Shown: positions 40,244 to 47,775 of the stretch, in pieces
How the letters are laid out: each line of letters starts with the position of its first letter
How positions within the stretch are numbered: position 1 is the first letter of the stretch
From: Thermosipho ferrireducens
GTDB lineage: Bacteria; Thermotogota; Thermotogae; Thermotogales; Fervidobacteriaceae
DNA length: 64,000 nt
Assembly: GCF_017358165.1 (NCBI RefSeq)
Contig: NZ_CP071446.1
Coordinates: forward strand, 806,001-870,000
Direction: 5' to 3'
Notes under the pieces: model-generated
The model's database searches: none
Seen by the model: the letters and a program-made list of their open reading frames with translations, nothing else
What the model was told of the DNA's origin: nothing
Position numbers and translations under genes: made by a program

Positions 40244-40946
40244 GAATATACCATTATCGATAATATACGAGGATAAAGATATAATAGTAATCAACAAAGC
40301 TCCCGGAATAATAACTCATCCTACTCCTTCAGTAACTACAGGAACCTTAGTTAACGCGATATTGTTTCATTGTAAGGATTTACAGGGAATAGGAGGAGAA
40401 CTCAGACCAGGAATTGTACACAGACTTGATAAAGACACGAGCGGAGTAATTGTTGTTGCAAAAAACGATAAAGCTCACCAGAGTCTTTCCCAGCAGTTCA
40501 AGGATAGAGTTACTGAAAAAGTATACGCTGCTGTTGTTCATGGGAATGTTAAAAAAGACTATGGAGCTATAGAGGTTTCTCTTGCGAGAAATCCGGTTCT
40601 TAGAACAAAAATGGCAGCACTTGAATGGGGAAAACCAGCCGTTACTTATTTTAAAGTAATCAGAAGATTTTCAAATATAGCCTCCCTTGTTTTTGCTTAT
40701 CCCAAGACAGGAAGAACTCATCAAATAAGGGTTCATATGAAATATATGGGAAATCCTTTGCTTGGAGATGAATTATACGGAAAAGGAAAAAAAGATGAAA
40801 TATACAATGTAAGGCGTCAAATGTTACACGCTTTAAGATTATCGTTTTATCATCCTTCCACCAAGGAAAAAGTTATTTTTACAGCTCCACTGCCAGAAGA
40901 TTTTAAAAATGTATTGAGAACGCTTTCGAAATTAGAAGAATCATAG
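40017..40946 (+). CDS. rluD: 23S rRNA pseudouridine synthase RluD
   Basis: RluD makes pseudouridines in helix 69 of 23S rRNA. The 309-residue protein has an N-terminal S4 domain (LDRYVQEKSPDWISRTFIQKAIKNG) and the RluA catalytic domain with HRLDKDTSGVIVVAKND holding the catalytic Asp, then PKTGRTHQIRVHMKYMGNPLLGDELYG. The ATG at 40017 and a TTG at 40020 both follow GGAGGGGAG. lspA followed by rluD is a common gene order. The 3' end overlaps the convergent clamp gene by 6 bases. Confidence 0.95.
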   Translation: MLNLIVTSREESWRLDRYVQEKSPDWISRTFIQKAIKNGEVTVNGRKKKPSYRVKIGDIITLNLPEKPEKVEILPENIPLSIIYEDKDIIVINKAPGIITHPTPSVTTGTLVNAILFHCKDLQGIGGELRPGIVHRLDKDTSGVIVVAKNDKAHQSLSQQFKDRVTEKVYAAVVHGNVKKDYGAIEVSLARNPVLRTKMAALEWGKPAVTYFKVIRRFSNIASLVFAYPKTGRTHQIRVHMKYMGNPLLGDELYGKGKKDEIYNVRRQMLHALRLSFYHPSTKEKVIFTAPLPEDFKNVLRTLSKLEES

Positions 40947-41984
40947 TAAAGGCAAAAATATATATCTTTTATGTTGACTGGTGGTAACTATTAAAAATTT
41001 ATCTCCCAGGGCAATTTTAATATTTTCGCCTCCAATTCTATTCAAAACACTCCTGAAAAAATATGCGGGCACTTCAGTATAAAAAGTTTTTTTCACAGCT
41101 GTTTTTATTATTCCTTTATATTCCAGACCATTTTTTGATGAATAAAATATCAATTTATCATTTTTGCCTGCTATTTTGACGTGTGTATATTTTCCAAGTA
41201 TCATTGATCTTCTTAGAAAATGCCTTAACATTTTTAAATTTGATGAAGCTATAAAAAAAGCATTTTTTATTTCATTTTCAAGTAGATCTAATCTGGTAAA
41301 GTTTTCAGAAATGTTTTCTCCACACAGGTTATACGTATATTTTGATTTAAATACAAGATGATTAATTCCCATACCAAAATGTAATTCTTTTTGAGGTAAT
41401 TTTTTGAATGATTTTACAATGTGACGCACTGAGAAGTAGGGAACGCTCCAGGCTAAGGTTCTTGAGAATTTTAACATTTCTCGGCGAGTATAACATATTA
41501 TAGAGTTGTGTTCTGCGGCCATTTTGAGGAAGTCGTGAAAAAATATGTCTATCATACTTCCTTCTTCAAGATGAGCAGATACAAAATCTAAATCATTTAC
41601 AAAAGAGCCTGTGTGAATACTTCCAAGATGTTCTGCTCTGTCTTCAAACGAAGTAAATTTAAAGGTATCAACCTTTAATTTTATACTTTCGCTTCGAGCT
41701 TTTAAAACGATATAATTTCCATCCGAGTAAAGAGAAATTTCTCCGGAAAGATCCTGCAGAAATGCTTTTAAAATGTCTAATGAAGCGTTAAAAGAAAGTG
41801 TAGTAGGATTAATTTTTCCAACAGGGATTCTTACAGAAAGGCAACCATCTGTTCCATAAAGTGTAAGATAACCTCTATTATATGAAAATCCCACGTATCT
41901 TACAGAAGGTTCAATGCTTCCACATATTTTGTCTATGTGATTTATAGCCTCTCTTAATATTTCAGTATGAATTGTTATTTTCAT
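40941..41984 (-). CDS. diverged DnaN-like sliding clamp
   Basis: This 347-residue protein resembles the DNA polymerase III beta clamp over its whole length. The N-terminus has the domain-1 pattern MKITIHTEILREAINHIDKI, with LTLYGTDGCLSVRIPV where typical clamps have a TDLE-type strand. LKMLRHFLRRSMILG matches the start of domain 3, and the end (KRYIFLPLL) matches the usual YLIMPVRL. Sequence identity to standard clamps looks low, and several central positions differ. It may be the only clamp or a second, specialised paralogue. It faces away from replication genes and stands alone on the minus strand. Confidence 0.65.
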   Translation of the reverse strand: MKITIHTEILREAINHIDKICGSIEPSVRYVGFSYNRGYLTLYGTDGCLSVRIPVGKINPTTLSFNASLDILKAFLQDLSGEISLYSDGNYIVLKARSESIKLKVDTFKFTSFEDRAEHLGSIHTGSFVNDLDFVSAHLEEGSMIDIFFHDFLKMAAEHNSIICYTRREMLKFSRTLAWSVPYFSVRHIVKSFKKLPQKELHFGMGINHLVFKSKYTYNLCGENISENFTRLDLLENEIKNAFFIASSNLKMLRHFLRRSMILGKYTHVKIAGKNDKLIFYSSKNGLEYKGIIKTAVKKTFYTEVPAYFFRSVLNRIGGENIKIALGDKFLIVTTSQHKRYIFLPLL

Positions 41985-42023
41985 AATCCCACCATATATC
42001 TACACGTTTTCAGGTTCGTTGAG

Positions 42024-42029: not shown

Positions 42030-42065
42030 ACATATTATAGATATATAGATGTAGAGTGGATACAA

Positions 42066-42270
42066 ATTAGCGAGGTTGGCGAGTGTTGGCGAGGTTAGCA
42101 AGATTGGCGAGATTGGCGAGGTTAGCGAGAGTTAGCAAGGTTGGTAAAAAGCAAGATCCTTCGCTACGCTCAGGATGACAAAAAAGGTTGTCATTCCGAG
42201 GAGCGTAGGAGGTGAGGAATCTTAATTTGGCGAGAGTTAGCGAGTGCTGGCGAGATTGTTGAGGTTAGCG
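42066..42270. repeat. dispersed palindromic repeat cluster, locus C, with 9-base tandem words
   Basis: A run of 9-10 base words of the TTGGCGAGA / TTAGCGAGG type occupies 42066-42146. It is followed by a reverse unit (42153-42180, AAGATCCTTCG to AGGATGACA) and a forward unit (42189-42224, TGTCATTCCGAGG to GAGGAATCTTA), then more of the words to 42270. The two units face each other and can pair as a stem with an 8-base loop. It shares its parts and their order with loci A and B. Confidence 0.88.
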
Positions 42271-42472: not shown

Positions 42473-43480
42473 ATGAGAATAGTGAGTTGGGGTCTTGGAG
42501 CTATGGGAAAAGGCATTGCGAAAAACATAGTGGAAAGTGGTTATATGAAACTTGTTGGAGCAATTGATAATAATCCTGCACTTTCCGGGAAAGACATAGG
42601 AGAAATTCTGGGAACAGGTAATTGCGGAGTGACAATAAGTGAAACGCCAGATGTTATAGAAAAAACCAATCCTGATCTTGTTGTGATTGCAACATCTTCT
42701 TTTGTGAAAGAAGTACTCCCTCAAATAGAATATTCTATAAAATCTCACGCAAACGTTATAACAATAGCAGAAGAAATGGCTTATCCATTCGATTCTCACA
42801 CCGAAGAATCACTTTACATTGATAGTCTCGCACGAAGATACGGTGTTACTGTACTTGGAACTGGTGTAAATCCTGGTTTTGTTCTTGATACATTGATAAT
42901 TTCTTTAACAGGGGTGTGTAACAAGGTTGATAAAATTGTTGCAAGAAGAATCAACGACCTATCTCCTTTTGGTAAAACGGTAATGGAAACACAAGGAGTA
43001 GGTACCACACCTGAAGAGTTTGAAGAAGGATTGAAAAGTGGAAAAATAGTGGGACACATAGGTTTTCCACAAAGTATTATGATGATTGCCCGGGCGCTGG
43101 GATGGAATATAGATAGAGTGGAAGAAGAAAGAAAACCAATTATTTCAAAAGTTCATAGAGAAACGCCAGTGGTAGAAGTAAAACCTGGAATGGTAGCGGG
43201 GTGTAATCATTCGGCAAAGGCTTATATAGGGAATGATGTTGTTATAGAAATGCAGCATCCACAGCAAATTCATCCACACCTTGAAGGAGTTGAAACAGGA
43301 GATTATATAGAGATTTACGGTGATCCAGATATTAAACTGGCGATAAAGCCGGAGATACCAGGTGGTAAAGCTACAATAGCAATAGCAACAAATATGATTC
43401 CAATTGTGATAGGAGCACAATCAGGACTAAAATGTATGGCTGATTTACCTGTTCCGCGTTCAATTCTTTCAATAAAGTAA
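42473..43480 (+). CDS. ord: 2,4-diaminopentanoate dehydrogenase
   Basis: Ord oxidatively deaminates (2R,4S)-2,4-diaminopentanoate to 2-amino-4-oxopentanoate with NAD(P)+ in ornithine fermentation. The 335-residue protein begins with a dinucleotide-binding fold ([14 protein letters not shown]) and has [20 protein letters not shown] and [22 protein letters not shown], typical of the dihydrodipicolinate reductase-like Ord family. The assignment is strengthened by the four genes that follow. The start follows AAAGGAGGAAG. Confidence 0.92.
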
Positions 43481-43497
43481 GTACAGAGGTGATTTAC

Positions 43498-43806
43498 ATG
43501 AAAGCCAGAAAAGGTGATTGGGTGCAAATACAGAAGACCATTTTAAAACCAGAAGAGCGAACAGCGCCACTTCCAGATGATACTAAAAAGGTTCCTTTTG
43601 AAATGAGAGTTAAAGGTTTTTTGTTAAATGAAAGTGCAATAGAAGGTGATATAGTTGAGATAAGAACATTAACAGGCAGGATAGTGAAAGGAACTCTGGT
43701 TTCAATTAATCCTGTGTATGAGCATAATTTTGGTGAACCAGTACCAGAACTCATTAATGTTGGATTGGAACTTAGAAAGATTTTAGAAGGTGATAACAAT
43801 GCGTGA
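43498..43806 (+). CDS. ortA: 2-amino-4-oxopentanoate thiolase, small subunit
   Basis: OrtA and OrtB together split 2-amino-4-oxopentanoate with CoA into acetyl-CoA and D-alanine. This 102-residue subunit has the compact beta-rich sequence of the family, with GDWVQIQKTILKPEERTAPLPDDT at its start and NPVYEHNFGEPVPELINVG near its end. The ATG at 43498 follows GAGGTGA. It overlaps ortB by 8 bases. Confidence 0.92.
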   Translation: MKARKGDWVQIQKTILKPEERTAPLPDDTKKVPFEMRVKGFLLNESAIEGDIVEIRTLTGRIVKGTLVSINPVYEHNFGEPVPELINVGLELRKILEGDNNA

Positions 43807-45217
43807 TGTATCTTATGATGCAGTAATGTCGAGAAAGAATGAAATAATGAAAAAAGCTGTCGGGATAGATTATAAAAAATTTATAAGCAGCGAGATAGCA
43901 TTTGATTATAACAAAATGATGGACGAAGTGGGATACGATATAGAAACAGTAAAAGAGATTCAGAAAGAAACAGGTGTGGGGAATACACCACTTGTCGAGC
44001 TTAAGCAAATAAATAAACTTATAAAGAAAATAGCTCCTAAAGGTAAAGGGGCCCGAATATTTGTAAAGGATGAAGCCACAAATCCATCTGGAAGCTATAA
44101 AGATAGAAGAGCTTCTGTGAGCATTTATCACGCGCAAAAACTTGGATATAAAGGTGTTATTGCAGCCACAAGTGGAAACTATGGGGCTGCTGTAGCATCA
44201 CAAGCTGCTAAAAGGGGCCTAAAATGTATAATAGTCCAGGAATGTTATGATAGCAAATGGATAGGTCAACCAGAAATTCTTGAAAAGGCAAGAGCATGTG
44301 AGGCTTATGGAGCAGAAGTTGTTCAGCTTACAGTTGGGCCAGAACTTTTTTATTATACGCTCGTATTGCTTGAAGAAACAGGGTATTTTAATGCGTCGCT
44401 TTATACACCATATGCAATTGCAGGTGTAGAAACACTGGGTTATGAGATAGCAGTTCAAGCAAAGGAAATAACAGGAAGATATCCTGATGCTGTTGTTATT
44501 ACCCACGCTGGTGGTGGAATATTAACAGGAACAGCCCGTGGTCTAAAAAAGGCTGGCGCAGTTGATACTCAGGTGATAGCTGCAAGTGTTAATTTGCGAG
44601 GGCTTCATATGGCAAGTGATAAAGATTTTAATAGGAAATATTTTACAACGGGACACACTGGTTTTGGAATACCTTTTGTTACCTTTCCGGATAGATCGGA
44701 TGTTCCCAAAAATGCTGCAAGAGCTTTAAGATATATGGATAGATATCTTCTGGTTACACAGGGAGAGGTATTTTACATAACTGAGATGTTAGCTCAGCTT
44801 GAAGGAATTCAAAGGGGACCTGCTGGTAACACATCTTTAGCTGCTGCTTTTGCATTAGCGCTCGAGATGGAAGAAGATAAAGTTATTGTTGTAAATGAAA
44901 CAGAGTATACTGGTGCTGGAAAACTCCCATCTGCTCAACTTACATTTGCCAGAAAAATGGGGATGGAGATAAAGAGAGGAGATCCTGTAGCAGAAGATTT
45001 ACCTGGGAAAAGAATAGTGATACCTCAACATCCGTCGCAAATCGCATATATAGAACTTAATATGGATAATATAAGAAAAAGTTATGTAAAAGAGGTTATA
45101 AAGAGATATGGAAAAAAAGACTTTACAAAAGAGGAAATAGAATTTATGGCGGAAGATACAAATACAACTCCCGAGAAAATTAATAATTTCATAGAAGAAA
45201 TACTTGGAGGTGAATGA
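43799..45217 (+). CDS. ortB: 2-amino-4-oxopentanoate thiolase, PLP-binding large subunit
   Basis: This 472-residue subunit has a fold type II PLP enzyme pattern like threonine synthase. The PLP lysine is Lys101 in NPSGSYKDRRASV, and the phosphate-binding ATSGNYGAAVASQAA and THAGGGILTGTARG loops are visible. It catalyses the PLP-dependent thiolytic step that releases D-alanine. The ATG at 43799 overlaps the end of ortA after GAAGGTGAT. Confidence 0.94.
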   Translation: MRDVSYDAVMSRKNEIMKKAVGIDYKKFISSEIAFDYNKMMDEVGYDIETVKEIQKETGVGNTPLVELKQINKLIKKIAPKGKGARIFVKDEATNPSGSYKDRRASVSIYHAQKLGYKGVIAATSGNYGAAVASQAAKRGLKCIIVQECYDSKWIGQPEILEKARACEAYGAEVVQLTVGPELFYYTLVLLEETGYFNASLYTPYAIAGVETLGYEIAVQAKEITGRYPDAVVITHAGGGILTGTARGLKKAGAVDTQVIAASVNLRGLHMASDKDFNRKYFTTGHTGFGIPFVTFPDRSDVPKNAARALRYMDRYLLVTQGEVFYITEMLAQLEGIQRGPAGNTSLAAAFALALEMEEDKVIVVNETEYTGAGKLPSAQLTFARKMGMEIKRGDPVAEDLPGKRIVIPQHPSQIAYIELNMDNIRKSYVKEVIKRYGKKDFTKEEIEFMAEDTNTTPEKINNFIEEILGGE

Positions 45218-45218
45218 T

Positions 45219-45599
45219 TTGAAACCACGTAAAGATGATTTTGAGGTTAGAAGTAAACATCTTCAAAAGATGTCAGATAAAGAATTAAACGAATATTTCT
45301 GGCACCTTGTAGAAAAAGTGGTTGATCCATTGATCGAACTTGCCAGAACTCATACTTCACCATCTGTAGAAAGATCAGTGCTTTTAAGAATGGGATTTAA
45401 CAGTATGGAATCAACAAAACTTGTTGATATGATCTTTCAAAAAGGTTTGCTGGGAAAAGGAGCAGGTCATATAGTATGGAGAATAGCCAGAGAAAAAAAC
45501 TTAGATGTGTTAACCGCAGGTAGAGAACTAATTGCTGGAAAATACTGGGAAGATGTAGACAGGATTTTCAAAGGGGTGAAAAATGATGCTAAAGCCTGA
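45219..45599 (+). CDS. oraS: D-ornithine 4,5-aminomutase, small subunit
   Basis: OraS is the small subunit of the adenosylcobalamin- and PLP-dependent enzyme that moves the 5-amino group of D-ornithine to C4. The 126-residue helical protein has LARTHTSPSVERSVLLRMGFNSMESTKLVD and KGLLGKGAGHIVWRIA, family hallmarks. A TTG at 45219 lies at good distance from GGAGGTG. A TTG at 45204 and a GTG at 45210 fall in or before that site. The end overlaps oraE by 17 bases. Confidence 0.92.
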   Translation: MKPRKDDFEVRSKHLQKMSDKELNEYFWHLVEKVVDPLIELARTHTSPSVERSVLLRMGFNSMESTKLVDMIFQKGLLGKGAGHIVWRIAREKNLDVLTAGRELIAGKYWEDVDRIFKGVKNDAKA

Positions 45600-47775
45600 T
45601 AAACCAATTGATATAGATGAAATATTAAAGGATCTGGATAAATACCGTCCAAGAAGAAGAGGATGGACGTGGAGAAAAAGATTGAAAGAAGGCACAAAGA
45701 TAGGAGATTATGAGTATTATCAGGTTAGTGAAGATTTAAAAAATAGTGTGCCACTTCCCGCTGCACATTATTTTGGAAATATAGATCCGCAACCTGAAGT
45801 TGTCATAACTTCAGAAATTGCTTCAGGAAGGTTTGAAGATGATATTAGAAGAATGAGAATGGCGGCGTGGCACGGGGCAGATCATATAATGGTTATAAGA
45901 ACTCTTGGTCAATCCCATTATGATGGTCTTATAGAAGGAACACCAGAAGGTGTTGGAGGAATACCAATTACAAGGAAACAACTTCGTGCTACAAGGAAGG
46001 CGTTAGATTTAATAGAAGACGAGGTTGGACGACCTATCAATTTCCACAGTTACGTATCCGGAGTAGCAGGTCCAGAAATAGCGGTTTTATTTGCCGAAGA
46101 AGGTGTAAATGGAGCGCACCAGGACCCACAGTATAACGTGCTTTACAGAGGTATAAATCCCATAAGGTCTTTTGTTGATGCAGCTGTTGCTAAAAAAATA
46201 ATGGCGTGGGCGAATATGTTGCAGATTGATGGAGCGCATAACGCGAACGCTTCCGCAAAACTTGCCTGGACTGTGATGCCGGAACTTCTGGTGCAGCACG
46301 CTATAAACTGTATGTACTCTCTTAAAGCAGGAATGAAGAAAGAGTATATAGCCCTCTCTACAGTTCCACCGGTTGTTGCACCGATGCCTGAATTTAGATA
46401 TAACTTGCCGTATGCTGTTGCTTTACGAGAATTGTTTGACGGATTTAAGTTTAGGGCCCAGATGAATACAAGATACATTGAATCTGATCTTTTTGATGCT
46501 ACAAGAATTCACGTGCTTAATACACTTATTTCAAGACTTACTTCTGCTGACTTACAATCTACAATAACACCTGACGAAGGAAGAAATGTACCATGGCATG
46601 TAAACTCAATTCGTGGTGTTGAAACAGCCAAGCATACTCTTATAGCTCTTGATGGAATGAAAGAGTATATAAAAATAGATGAACAAAAAATAAGAGAGCG
46701 AGTAAGAGAACTTAAAATGAGAGCTATCTTGATGTTAGAGGAAATAATAGATATGGGAGGTTACTTTGAGGCTTTAGAAGCGGGAATGTTTGTTGACAAT
46801 GGTTATTACCCGGAACGAATTGGAGATGGAATTGCCAGGAAAAAGGATGGAGAAATAGCTGCCGGGACTGTGGTACCGCGAGAGTCTGATTATATGGCAC
46901 CTGTATGTGAACATTTTGGATATAACAATTTACCGGAAAAAGTTGAAAAGCCATGTGATTTAATAGGTGGATGTACTCTGCATAATCCAGAAAAAATTCA
47001 ATTTATTGATGAACTTGATGAAACAGATAATGTAAACTTGAGACTTGAGAAAGTCCGAGACATGAAAAATAGAAACGTTATAAAACCAGAAGTTGAATGG
47101 TTCGCCGACGGGTGGATTCAATTAGATATGACATTTGCACTACCTGAAGAGCTGGCAGAAGCTGCAGCAATAACATTATGTGAGCGTTTAGGTTTAGAAG
47201 AACCTGCTGTAATAAGTAAAACTGTTTTACATCCATCAGAAGGAACTTATTTAGAAATAAAGGCCAGAGTTCCGTTTGAAATAGAAATTGATAAACTTGA
47301 ACTTCCTGAAAAACCTGAAACGCTTCCTGAAGAGGAAATTTTTGAATTTGTGAAAAACAATCCTATACATGTTGTTGCTGGTACAGTTGGAAATGATGAA
47401 CATTCAGTTGGATTGAGAGAAATTCTTGATATAAAACATGGTGGTATAGAAAAATACGGCATAAAGTACACTTATCTTGGAACAAGTGTTCCACCTGAGA
47501 AAATGATAGACGCAGCAATTGAAACAGGAGCAAAAGCTATACTTGCTTCTATGATCATTACACATAATGATGTTCATGTAAAAAATATGAAGCGATTGCA
47601 TGAATTAGCCATTGAAAAAGGTATTCGTGATAAAATACTTTTGATAGCAGGTGGGACTCAAATAGTCAATGACTTAGCAATTGAAAGTGGTATGGACGCA
47701 GGATTTGGAAGAGGTACGAAAGGGGTGCATGTAGCATCATTTATAGTGAAAAAGTTAAAAGAAAAAGACAAATGA
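45583..47775 (+). CDS. oraE: D-ornithine 4,5-aminomutase, large subunit
   Basis: OraE carries the active site, a TIM barrel, and a B12-binding Rossmann domain. The 730-residue length matches the family. The N-terminal half has PRRRGWTWRKRLKEG, GQSHYDGLIEGTPEGVGG and SYVSGVAGPEIAVLFAEEG. The C-terminal domain has the base-off cobalamin motif D605-x-H607-x-x-G (NDEHSVG), then AGGTQIVNDL and GFGRGTKGVHVA. Either of two adjacent ATG codons (45583, 45586) may start it after AAGGGGTGA. The stop overlaps the next gene by 4 bases. No ornithine racemase gene lies in the cluster. Confidence 0.97.
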   Translation: MMLKPDKPIDIDEILKDLDKYRPRRRGWTWRKRLKEGTKIGDYEYYQVSEDLKNSVPLPAAHYFGNIDPQPEVVITSEIASGRFEDDIRRMRMAAWHGADHIMVIRTLGQSHYDGLIEGTPEGVGGIPITRKQLRATRKALDLIEDEVGRPINFHSYVSGVAGPEIAVLFAEEGVNGAHQDPQYNVLYRGINPIRSFVDAAVAKKIMAWANMLQIDGAHNANASAKLAWTVMPELLVQHAINCMYSLKAGMKKEYIALSTVPPVVAPMPEFRYNLPYAVALRELFDGFKFRAQMNTRYIESDLFDATRIHVLNTLISRLTSADLQSTITPDEGRNVPWHVNSIRGVETAKHTLIALDGMKEYIKIDEQKIRERVRELKMRAILMLEEIIDMGGYFEALEAGMFVDNGYYPERIGDGIARKKDGEIAAGTVVPRESDYMAPVCEHFGYNNLPEKVEKPCDLIGGCTLHNPEKIQFIDELDETDNVNLRLEKVRDMKNRNVIKPEVEWFADGWIQLDMTFALPEELAEAAAITLCERLGLEEPAVISKTVLHPSEGTYLEIKARVPFEIEIDKLELPEKPETLPEEEIFEFVKNNPIHVVAGTVGNDEHSVGLREILDIKHGGIEKYGIKYTYLGTSVPPEKMIDAAIETGAKAILASMIITHNDVHVKNMKRLHELAIEKGIRDKILLIAGGTQIVNDLAIESGMDAGFGRGTKGVHVASFIVKKLKEKDK

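Follow-up and report, generated by a model that had tools for sequence, protein, structure and literature searches.

The window analysed here is a stretch of 64,000 nucleotides from Thermosipho ferrireducens, corresponding to bases 806001-870000 of a genome that forms a single contig (1,982,543 bases, 99.97% complete). On its minus strand, at 40941-41984, lies an intact open reading frame of 347 codons that encodes a paralogue of the bacterial beta clamp, DnaN; read on the plus strand, the same interval contains many stops. A Shine-Dalgarno-like hexamer, GGTGGG, is found three bases 5' of the ATG. The features of the gene are listed below, where domain boundaries are based on domain comparison, an AlphaFold model and profile alignment, and counts refer to 96 aligned paralogues.

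40941-41984, minus strand: DnaN paralogue gene, 347 aa, ATG start, stop included
41988-41993, minus strand: GGTGGG, possible ribosome-binding site, as read from the sequence
41637-41984, minus strand: domain 1, approximately residues 1-116
41265-41636, minus strand: domain 2, approximately residues 117-240
40944-41264, minus strand: domain 3, approximately residues 241-347, where the Pfam and NCBIfam matches fall
41910-41921, minus strand: G22-E25 loop, aligned with the R24 loop of E. coli DnaN (G in 96/96, E25 in 93/96)
41841-41849, minus strand: D46-G47-C48 motif (D in 94, G in 86 and C in 91 of 96)
41688-41690, minus strand: E99, in the domain-1 edge strand, member of the top coevolving pair with Y289
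41559-41567, minus strand: E140-E141-G142 loop, at the place of the E. coli 149-151 loop (E141 in 90/96)
41496-41513, minus strand: residues 158-163, aligned with the cleft motif T172-L177 (T-D-G-x-R-L), which is missing here and family-wide
41412-41441, minus strand: P182-K191, helix start PYxSxRHxVK (R187 and K191 in 96/96, H188 in 91/96)
41319-41324, minus strand: C221-G222, close to the end of domain 2 (C in 92/96)
41118-41120, minus strand: Y289, in the domain-3 edge strand, coevolving with E99
41037-41054, minus strand: R311-R316, basic domain-3 helix (K/R in 74/96 and 92/96, respectively)

The gene shares 6 bases with the end of a convergent rluD-like gene, and 488 bases separate it from a divergent gene cluster (window 42473-47775), which by eye resembles an ornithine-degradation cluster (ord, ortA, ortB, oraS, oraE). 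Upstream of the paralogue gene, at 42059-42270, there is a patch of degenerate repeats of the type GCGAGRTTRG with a spacing of 9 bases; the repeat AAGATCCTTCGCTACGCTCAGGATGACA beside this patch has 19 copies in the genome at up to 3 mismatches, with 0 for the reversed control. No RNA family or terminator-like site was found near the gene.

The original prediction, made from the DNA alone, described a diverged DnaN-like protein with a recognizable clamp start, domain-3 entry and end, and with most of its sequence departing from standard clamps. The three pieces are borne out, with homology above chance by Pfam, NCBIfam, profile-profile comparison and fold, and the middle turns out to align as well. 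A match to DnaN models, whose absence the prediction had named as refuting it, is found. For the window protein, Pfam PF00712 gives 26.1 bits (cut-off 24.4, E ∼1e-5, best stretch residues 265-341), and TIGR00663 gives 24.7 bits (E ∼1e-5, best stretch residues 249-339), which does not reach the curated DnaN equivalog cut-off of 137.65. Models applied to single sequences thus produce a faint match confined to the third domain, and TIGR00663 matches only one of 37 family members at E 0.01 or better, and PF00712 four of 37. The profile built from 96 paralogues, on the other hand, can be aligned with a canonical set, in which E. coli DnaN is included, with 98.7% probability along 341 columns. Identity to DnaN is 13-14% (∼13% in the profile alignment with DnaN of the same lineage). 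In a 3x3 comparison of paralogue (P) and canonical (C) domains, the best scores lie on the diagonal (P1-C1, 5.8e-10; P2-C2, 1.8e-5; P3-C3, 8.6e-9), and hence the domain order is 1-2-3, colinear with DnaN. A circular permutation (2-3-1), to which the placing of the Pfam and NCBIfam domain-1 models on the third domain had pointed, is ruled out because the domains prefer their own counterparts.

The predicted structure agrees with this assignment. An AlphaFold model from seven sequences (pLDDT 85.5, pTM 0.81) was compared with the PDB by Foldseek, and the 50 matches listed are all beta clamps, with TM scores of 0.73-0.81 by query length. VIA-align gives Z values of 27.9-29.3 over 332-341 residues to solved beta clamps, and clamps alone are among the matches listed; the lowest of these Z values (27.9, 341 residues) is that for T. 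maritima TM0262, a canonical beta clamp (PDB 1vpk). A sequence search for a solved structure of the paralogue itself matched canonical clamps only. Sequence comparison and the predicted model together confirm that the window protein is a full-length, three-domain, colinear homologue of the bacterial beta clamp.

A second, normal dnaN, whose existence the prediction had left as a question, is present in the same genome (C1:131264-132358, 242.9 bits, one copy). The window gene is consequently a paralogue, and the possibility that it is simply the sole clamp of its lineage is ruled out. The remark that the gene lies away from dnaA and recF is true but not diagnostic, as neither of these genes adjoins the canonical dnaN of this genome (L032, 4259-5365), which sits between what by eye are pilin-like and sugar-kinase-like genes. 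In the genomes searched within the order and the class, homologues of the paralogue are located elsewhere than the canonical genes. The two groups are also separated by a family HMM, with which full-length paralogues score at least 175 bits and the best canonical clamp 76, and by a tree built from 43 paralogues together with 24 canonical clamps, which contains one group change with a branch support of 100 (long branches, quick method). Canonical dnaN was found in 58 of 61 genomes, and the three genomes without it are 60, 79 and 93% complete.

The paralogue is carried by 98 of 103 genomes of the Thermotogota, whose members are mostly thermophilic. The profile search matched 101 of the 103, with no match in G042 and G043, and we discounted weak matches in G036, G048 and G054 (those in G048 and G054 are at or near canonical scores). 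One carrier, G081, has an end fragment only, and the copies of G028, G059 and G089 are interrupted or split. Among the 82 genomes with a completeness of 90% or more and a contamination of 5% or less, four are without the paralogue by this reading (G036, G042, G043 and G048). Both members of genus g14 (G042, G043) and of genus g18 (G048, G054) lack it and keep DnaN and PolC matches; these absences are possibly real losses, or else divergence beyond detection. Beyond the phylum, the paralogue was found in none of 287 sampled genomes (of 390), where no match exceeded 37 bits and two weak family-HMM matches both fell in the canonical score range; the absence is that of a 287-genome sample and not of an exhaustive search. 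A separate contig scan with narrow patterns gave 6 loci.

In a tree of the 96 paralogues, families f1, f2, f5, f8, f9 and f11, and the three rows of f4, are each grouped, while f3 is split into two parts joined by weak branches. In each of 300 genome pairs, drawn from 25 genomes with both sequences, the paralogues are less similar to each other than the canonical clamps are (mean identity 26% versus 50%), and dN/dS values are 0.04-0.17 in 14 of 15 close pairs (one undefined), which indicates purifying selection. Taken together, the tree, identities and dN/dS values describe a gene that is old, mostly vertically inherited, fast-evolving and constrained. A tblastn search with the window protein found no match among phage records (50,697) or plasmid records (72,556), and this result, along with the largely family-wise tree, rules out recent import from a phage or plasmid. 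The proposal of a specialised clamp remains the best reading, judged from sequence, of a paralogue beside a normal DnaN. The original prediction did not foresee a phylum-wide, largely vertical family.

For comparisons of the cleft and of charge, the canonical set consisted of the 30 distinct clamps among the loci fetched, rather than of all 58 dnaN-bearing genomes. E. coli positions were mapped by hhalign; the functional positions of the E. coli DnaN cleft are T172-L177, P242, V247, N320 and M362-R365. The cleft between domains 2 and 3 (T-D-G-x-R-L, FPDY, N320, R365) is kept in the 30 canonical Thermotogota clamps, with 30 of 30 conserved at each of the positions D173, R176, P242, V247, N320 and R365, whereas it is lost across the 96 paralogues, in which the residues at these positions are scattered. 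The clamp-motif pocket, which the prediction placed in domain 3 and whose presence it left to a test, is therefore lost, and is really a cleft between domains 2 and 3 and not a feature of domain 3 alone. Since the loader delta subunit and polymerases use this cleft, a role stated in general terms in PMC3290774, a clamp that lacks it would have to be recruited and loaded in another way.

The paralogues have instead a conserved set of their own, consisting of G22, E25, D46, G47, C48, E141, P182, R187, H188, K191, C221 and R316 (86-96 of 96 each). Of these, the R187 position is also K/R in 29 of 30 canonical clamps, while K73, in the second helix of domain 1, and R311, in that of domain 3, are basic positions absent from canonical clamps. 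Cysteines C48 and C221 are lost together in three proteins of one family, and three others lose one of the two; a disulfide or metal site formed by this pair is a weak candidate, given the three proteins that lose just one cysteine.

The paralogues are more basic than the canonical clamps. Net charge ranges from -4 to +19 (median +5) for the 96 paralogues and from -29 to -6 (median -20) for the 30 canonical clamps, and the paralogue is the more basic of the two in 25 of 25 matched genomes. Net charge is above zero in 70 of 96 and zero or below in 26 of 96, so that "basic" is to be understood as relative. The median pI is 8.8, versus 4.7 for the canonical clamps, and the acidic character of DnaN is not shared by the paralogues. 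In the six helices that align with the channel helices, mean net charge is +9.3, compared to +1.8 for the 30 canonical Thermotogota clamps and +5 for E. coli; at the level of sequence, then, the paralogues have the positively charged channel helices of a clamp. This charge suggests that the protein may bind DNA directly.

At the domain edges, where canonical clamps dimerise, the paralogues keep the character of some positions and not of others. The F106 position is L in 84 of 96 paralogues and the L108 position is mostly L, I or V; the acids of the canonical domain-3 edge (E301 and E304 positions) are not kept, and the R103 position is K/R in 24 of 30 canonical clamps and in 0 of 96 paralogues. 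In a corrected mutual-information scan, the top-ranked pair was E99-Y289, equivalent to E. coli positions 104 and 302. This pair is close to R103C/I305C, the engineered cysteine pair in the title of PDB entry 3pwe. As judged from the known ring, residues of domain 1 and domain 3 in the same chain are expected to meet only across the dimer edge. E99 and Y289 changed jointly only approximately two times on the tree, and a paired sign test cannot reach significance. In the top 0.5% of pairs between domains 1 and 3, five of 60 are in the interface (2.4 expected), and as a class the interface pairs outscore other such pairs (p 2.7e-5, pairs non-independent); the interface columns for this comparison were picked after E99 and Y289 had already been tabulated. 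These observations are a hint that the paralogue may dimerise head to tail through the edges of domains 1 and 3.

A repeated genomic association is with polC. In two families the paralogue lies directly behind polC in 30 of 38 genomes (f11, 16 of 17; f9, 14 of 21), with 10-23 bases between the two matches. The identity of PolC was established by NCBIfam at two loci (1798 and 1720 bits); at the two loci that were read, polC is itself preceded by ruvC-type genes, and RuvC was confirmed by a model in one. At two paralogue-linked loci, the C-terminal end of PolC is QITLF or QISLFGG, a motif for the canonical cleft, and so PolC presumably holds the normal clamp and is linked to the paralogue by operon only. 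In the coordinates listed for families other than f9 and f11, there is no polC adjacency; upstream neighbours are alaS (f3 g7), ddl (f2) and tsaD (Fervidobacterium, g3, and g2), and no constant neighbour is common to all families. Co-absence of PolC and the paralogue is uninformative, as PolC-type matches occur in 103 of 103 Thermotogota genomes (97 above cut-off). The T. ferrireducens genome has one holA and one dnaX above cut-off, and no further loader was seen. That the gene recurs behind polC suggests a role in replication or in repair synthesis.

Starting from the observed fold, paralogy, retention under purifying selection, cleft loss and charge, we consider that the gene probably encodes a second, anciently diverged, DNA-encircling beta-type clamp of Thermotogota, here labelled DnaN2, whose recruitment, and probably also whose loading, would bypass the canonical cleft (a probability of roughly 55%). 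DnaN2 resembles DnaN (E. coli; T. maritima TM0262, PDB 1vpk) in its whole-length, colinear, three-domain fold, its hydrophobic edge positions and some basic positions of the channel helices (R187 and R259 of the window protein). It differs in being 13-14% identical and far below the equivalog cut-off, in having its own invariant set and a net charge that is reversed or near zero, and in lacking the cleft, FPDY, R365 and the R24 position. In the proposed mechanism, DnaN2 would pair with itself head to tail through the domain-1 and domain-3 edges and enclose DNA with positively charged helices. It would not be bound by canonical QxxLF proteins, nor by loader delta through that cleft, and would associate with DNA by its own basic surface or another loading route. 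The conserved cluster in domains 1 and 2 (E25, D46-C48, E141, C221) suggests a new partner surface, through which a dedicated partner may be recruited. More speculatively, the D-G turn of domain 1 might do the job of the T-D-G turn of DnaN domain 2.

A more specific version, which we put forward tentatively and which is rather unlikely to hold in full, is that of a self-loading, basic cellular clamp without a cleft, in which the partner site has shifted from domains 2/3 to domains 1/2 (D46-G47-C48, E25, E141, C221) to serve a Thermotogota-specific partner, with a link to replication in the ancestor of those families where the gene follows polC.

The clamp fold is also used without a ring. The herpesvirus processivity factors UL42 and UL44 are viral, two-domain proteins of this fold that turn a basic surface to DNA and have no loader bound at a cleft, and the paralogue could likewise be a processivity or DNA-binding factor that presents an open basic face to DNA and needs no loader. 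The missing docking cleft for loader and polymerase, the loss of the E301/E304 acids and the raised pI would fit this, the last being suggestive only. We nevertheless regard a UL42-like factor as unlikely, because the edge hydrophobics are kept, the top coevolving pair bridges the two dimer edges and there are three domains, as in ring-forming beta, in contrast to the two of UL42. The likeness to UL42/UL44 is in any case an analogy of working only. A doubtful alternative is that the paralogue forms mixed rings with the canonical clamp, in which a single cleft would still work, or that it regulates DnaN by opening or blocking it. The two genes do co-occur and their folds are compatible, but the interface charges differ at the R103 and E301/E304 positions, both members of the top coevolving pair belong to the paralogue, and DnaN evolves much more slowly in all 300 genome pairs.

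An ordinary backup or repair clamp with the same partners is very improbable. The precedent is a second chromosomal dnaN (DnaN-2) beside the normal one, which occurs in many Bacillus species; that of B. anthracis and relatives is ∼40% alike to its sister and is thought to be active in replication (PMC3290774). In contrast, the Thermotogota paralogue is ∼13% identical to DnaN, which is too distant for a close paralogue, and is phylum-wide and cleft-less, with cleft positions unconserved across the 96 sequences. That the gene is a decaying remnant, or came from a phage and serves no function, is already contradicted: its evolution is faster than that of DnaN and some copies are broken or split, but the low dN/dS values, retention in 98 of 103 genomes, invariant residues, absence from the phage and plasmid records and largely family-by-family tree all argue against it.

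DnaN2, if correctly interpreted, bears on the clamp and its protein-binding groove, which PMC3290774 describes as one of the most conserved interaction systems of bacterial replication. If a phylum keeps a groove-less, charge-changed second clamp across its families, then the groove is not needed for a clamp to be of use, and DnaN2 would be a natural test of the separate contributions of groove, loader and sliding. A gene that nearly all Thermotogota carry, and that current family models largely miss, would also gain a role. In the literature searched, with subscription journals and preprints outside its scope, no description of the paralogue gene was found; the corresponding T. maritima locus may be TM1395.

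Several other DnaN-like sequences came to light. Phage DnaN-like clamps (PHROG 947; BFVD) have the same fold as the paralogue (TM up to 0.80), and PHROG 947 is matched by 10 of 37 paralogue members, with a best E of 4.7e-8. The same family gives 298 bits for E. coli DnaN and 238 for the canonical DnaN of T. ferrireducens, versus 28 for the one that matched among four paralogues tried alone, and the weak matches are thus attributable to general DnaN homology. The Thermosipho-like genome G013 has two canonical dnaN matches above cut-off (C23:20508-21593 and C3:62171-63262; 287 and 239 bits), reflecting either contamination or a true second copy. In G060, a second canonical-type dnaN match (C1:1818024-1819064) has two internal stops and is possibly a pseudogene. 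Lastly, G058 contains a DnaN-like open reading frame of 502 codons (C55:30330-31463, 124.8 bits, below cut-off) that stands apart from both clamps.
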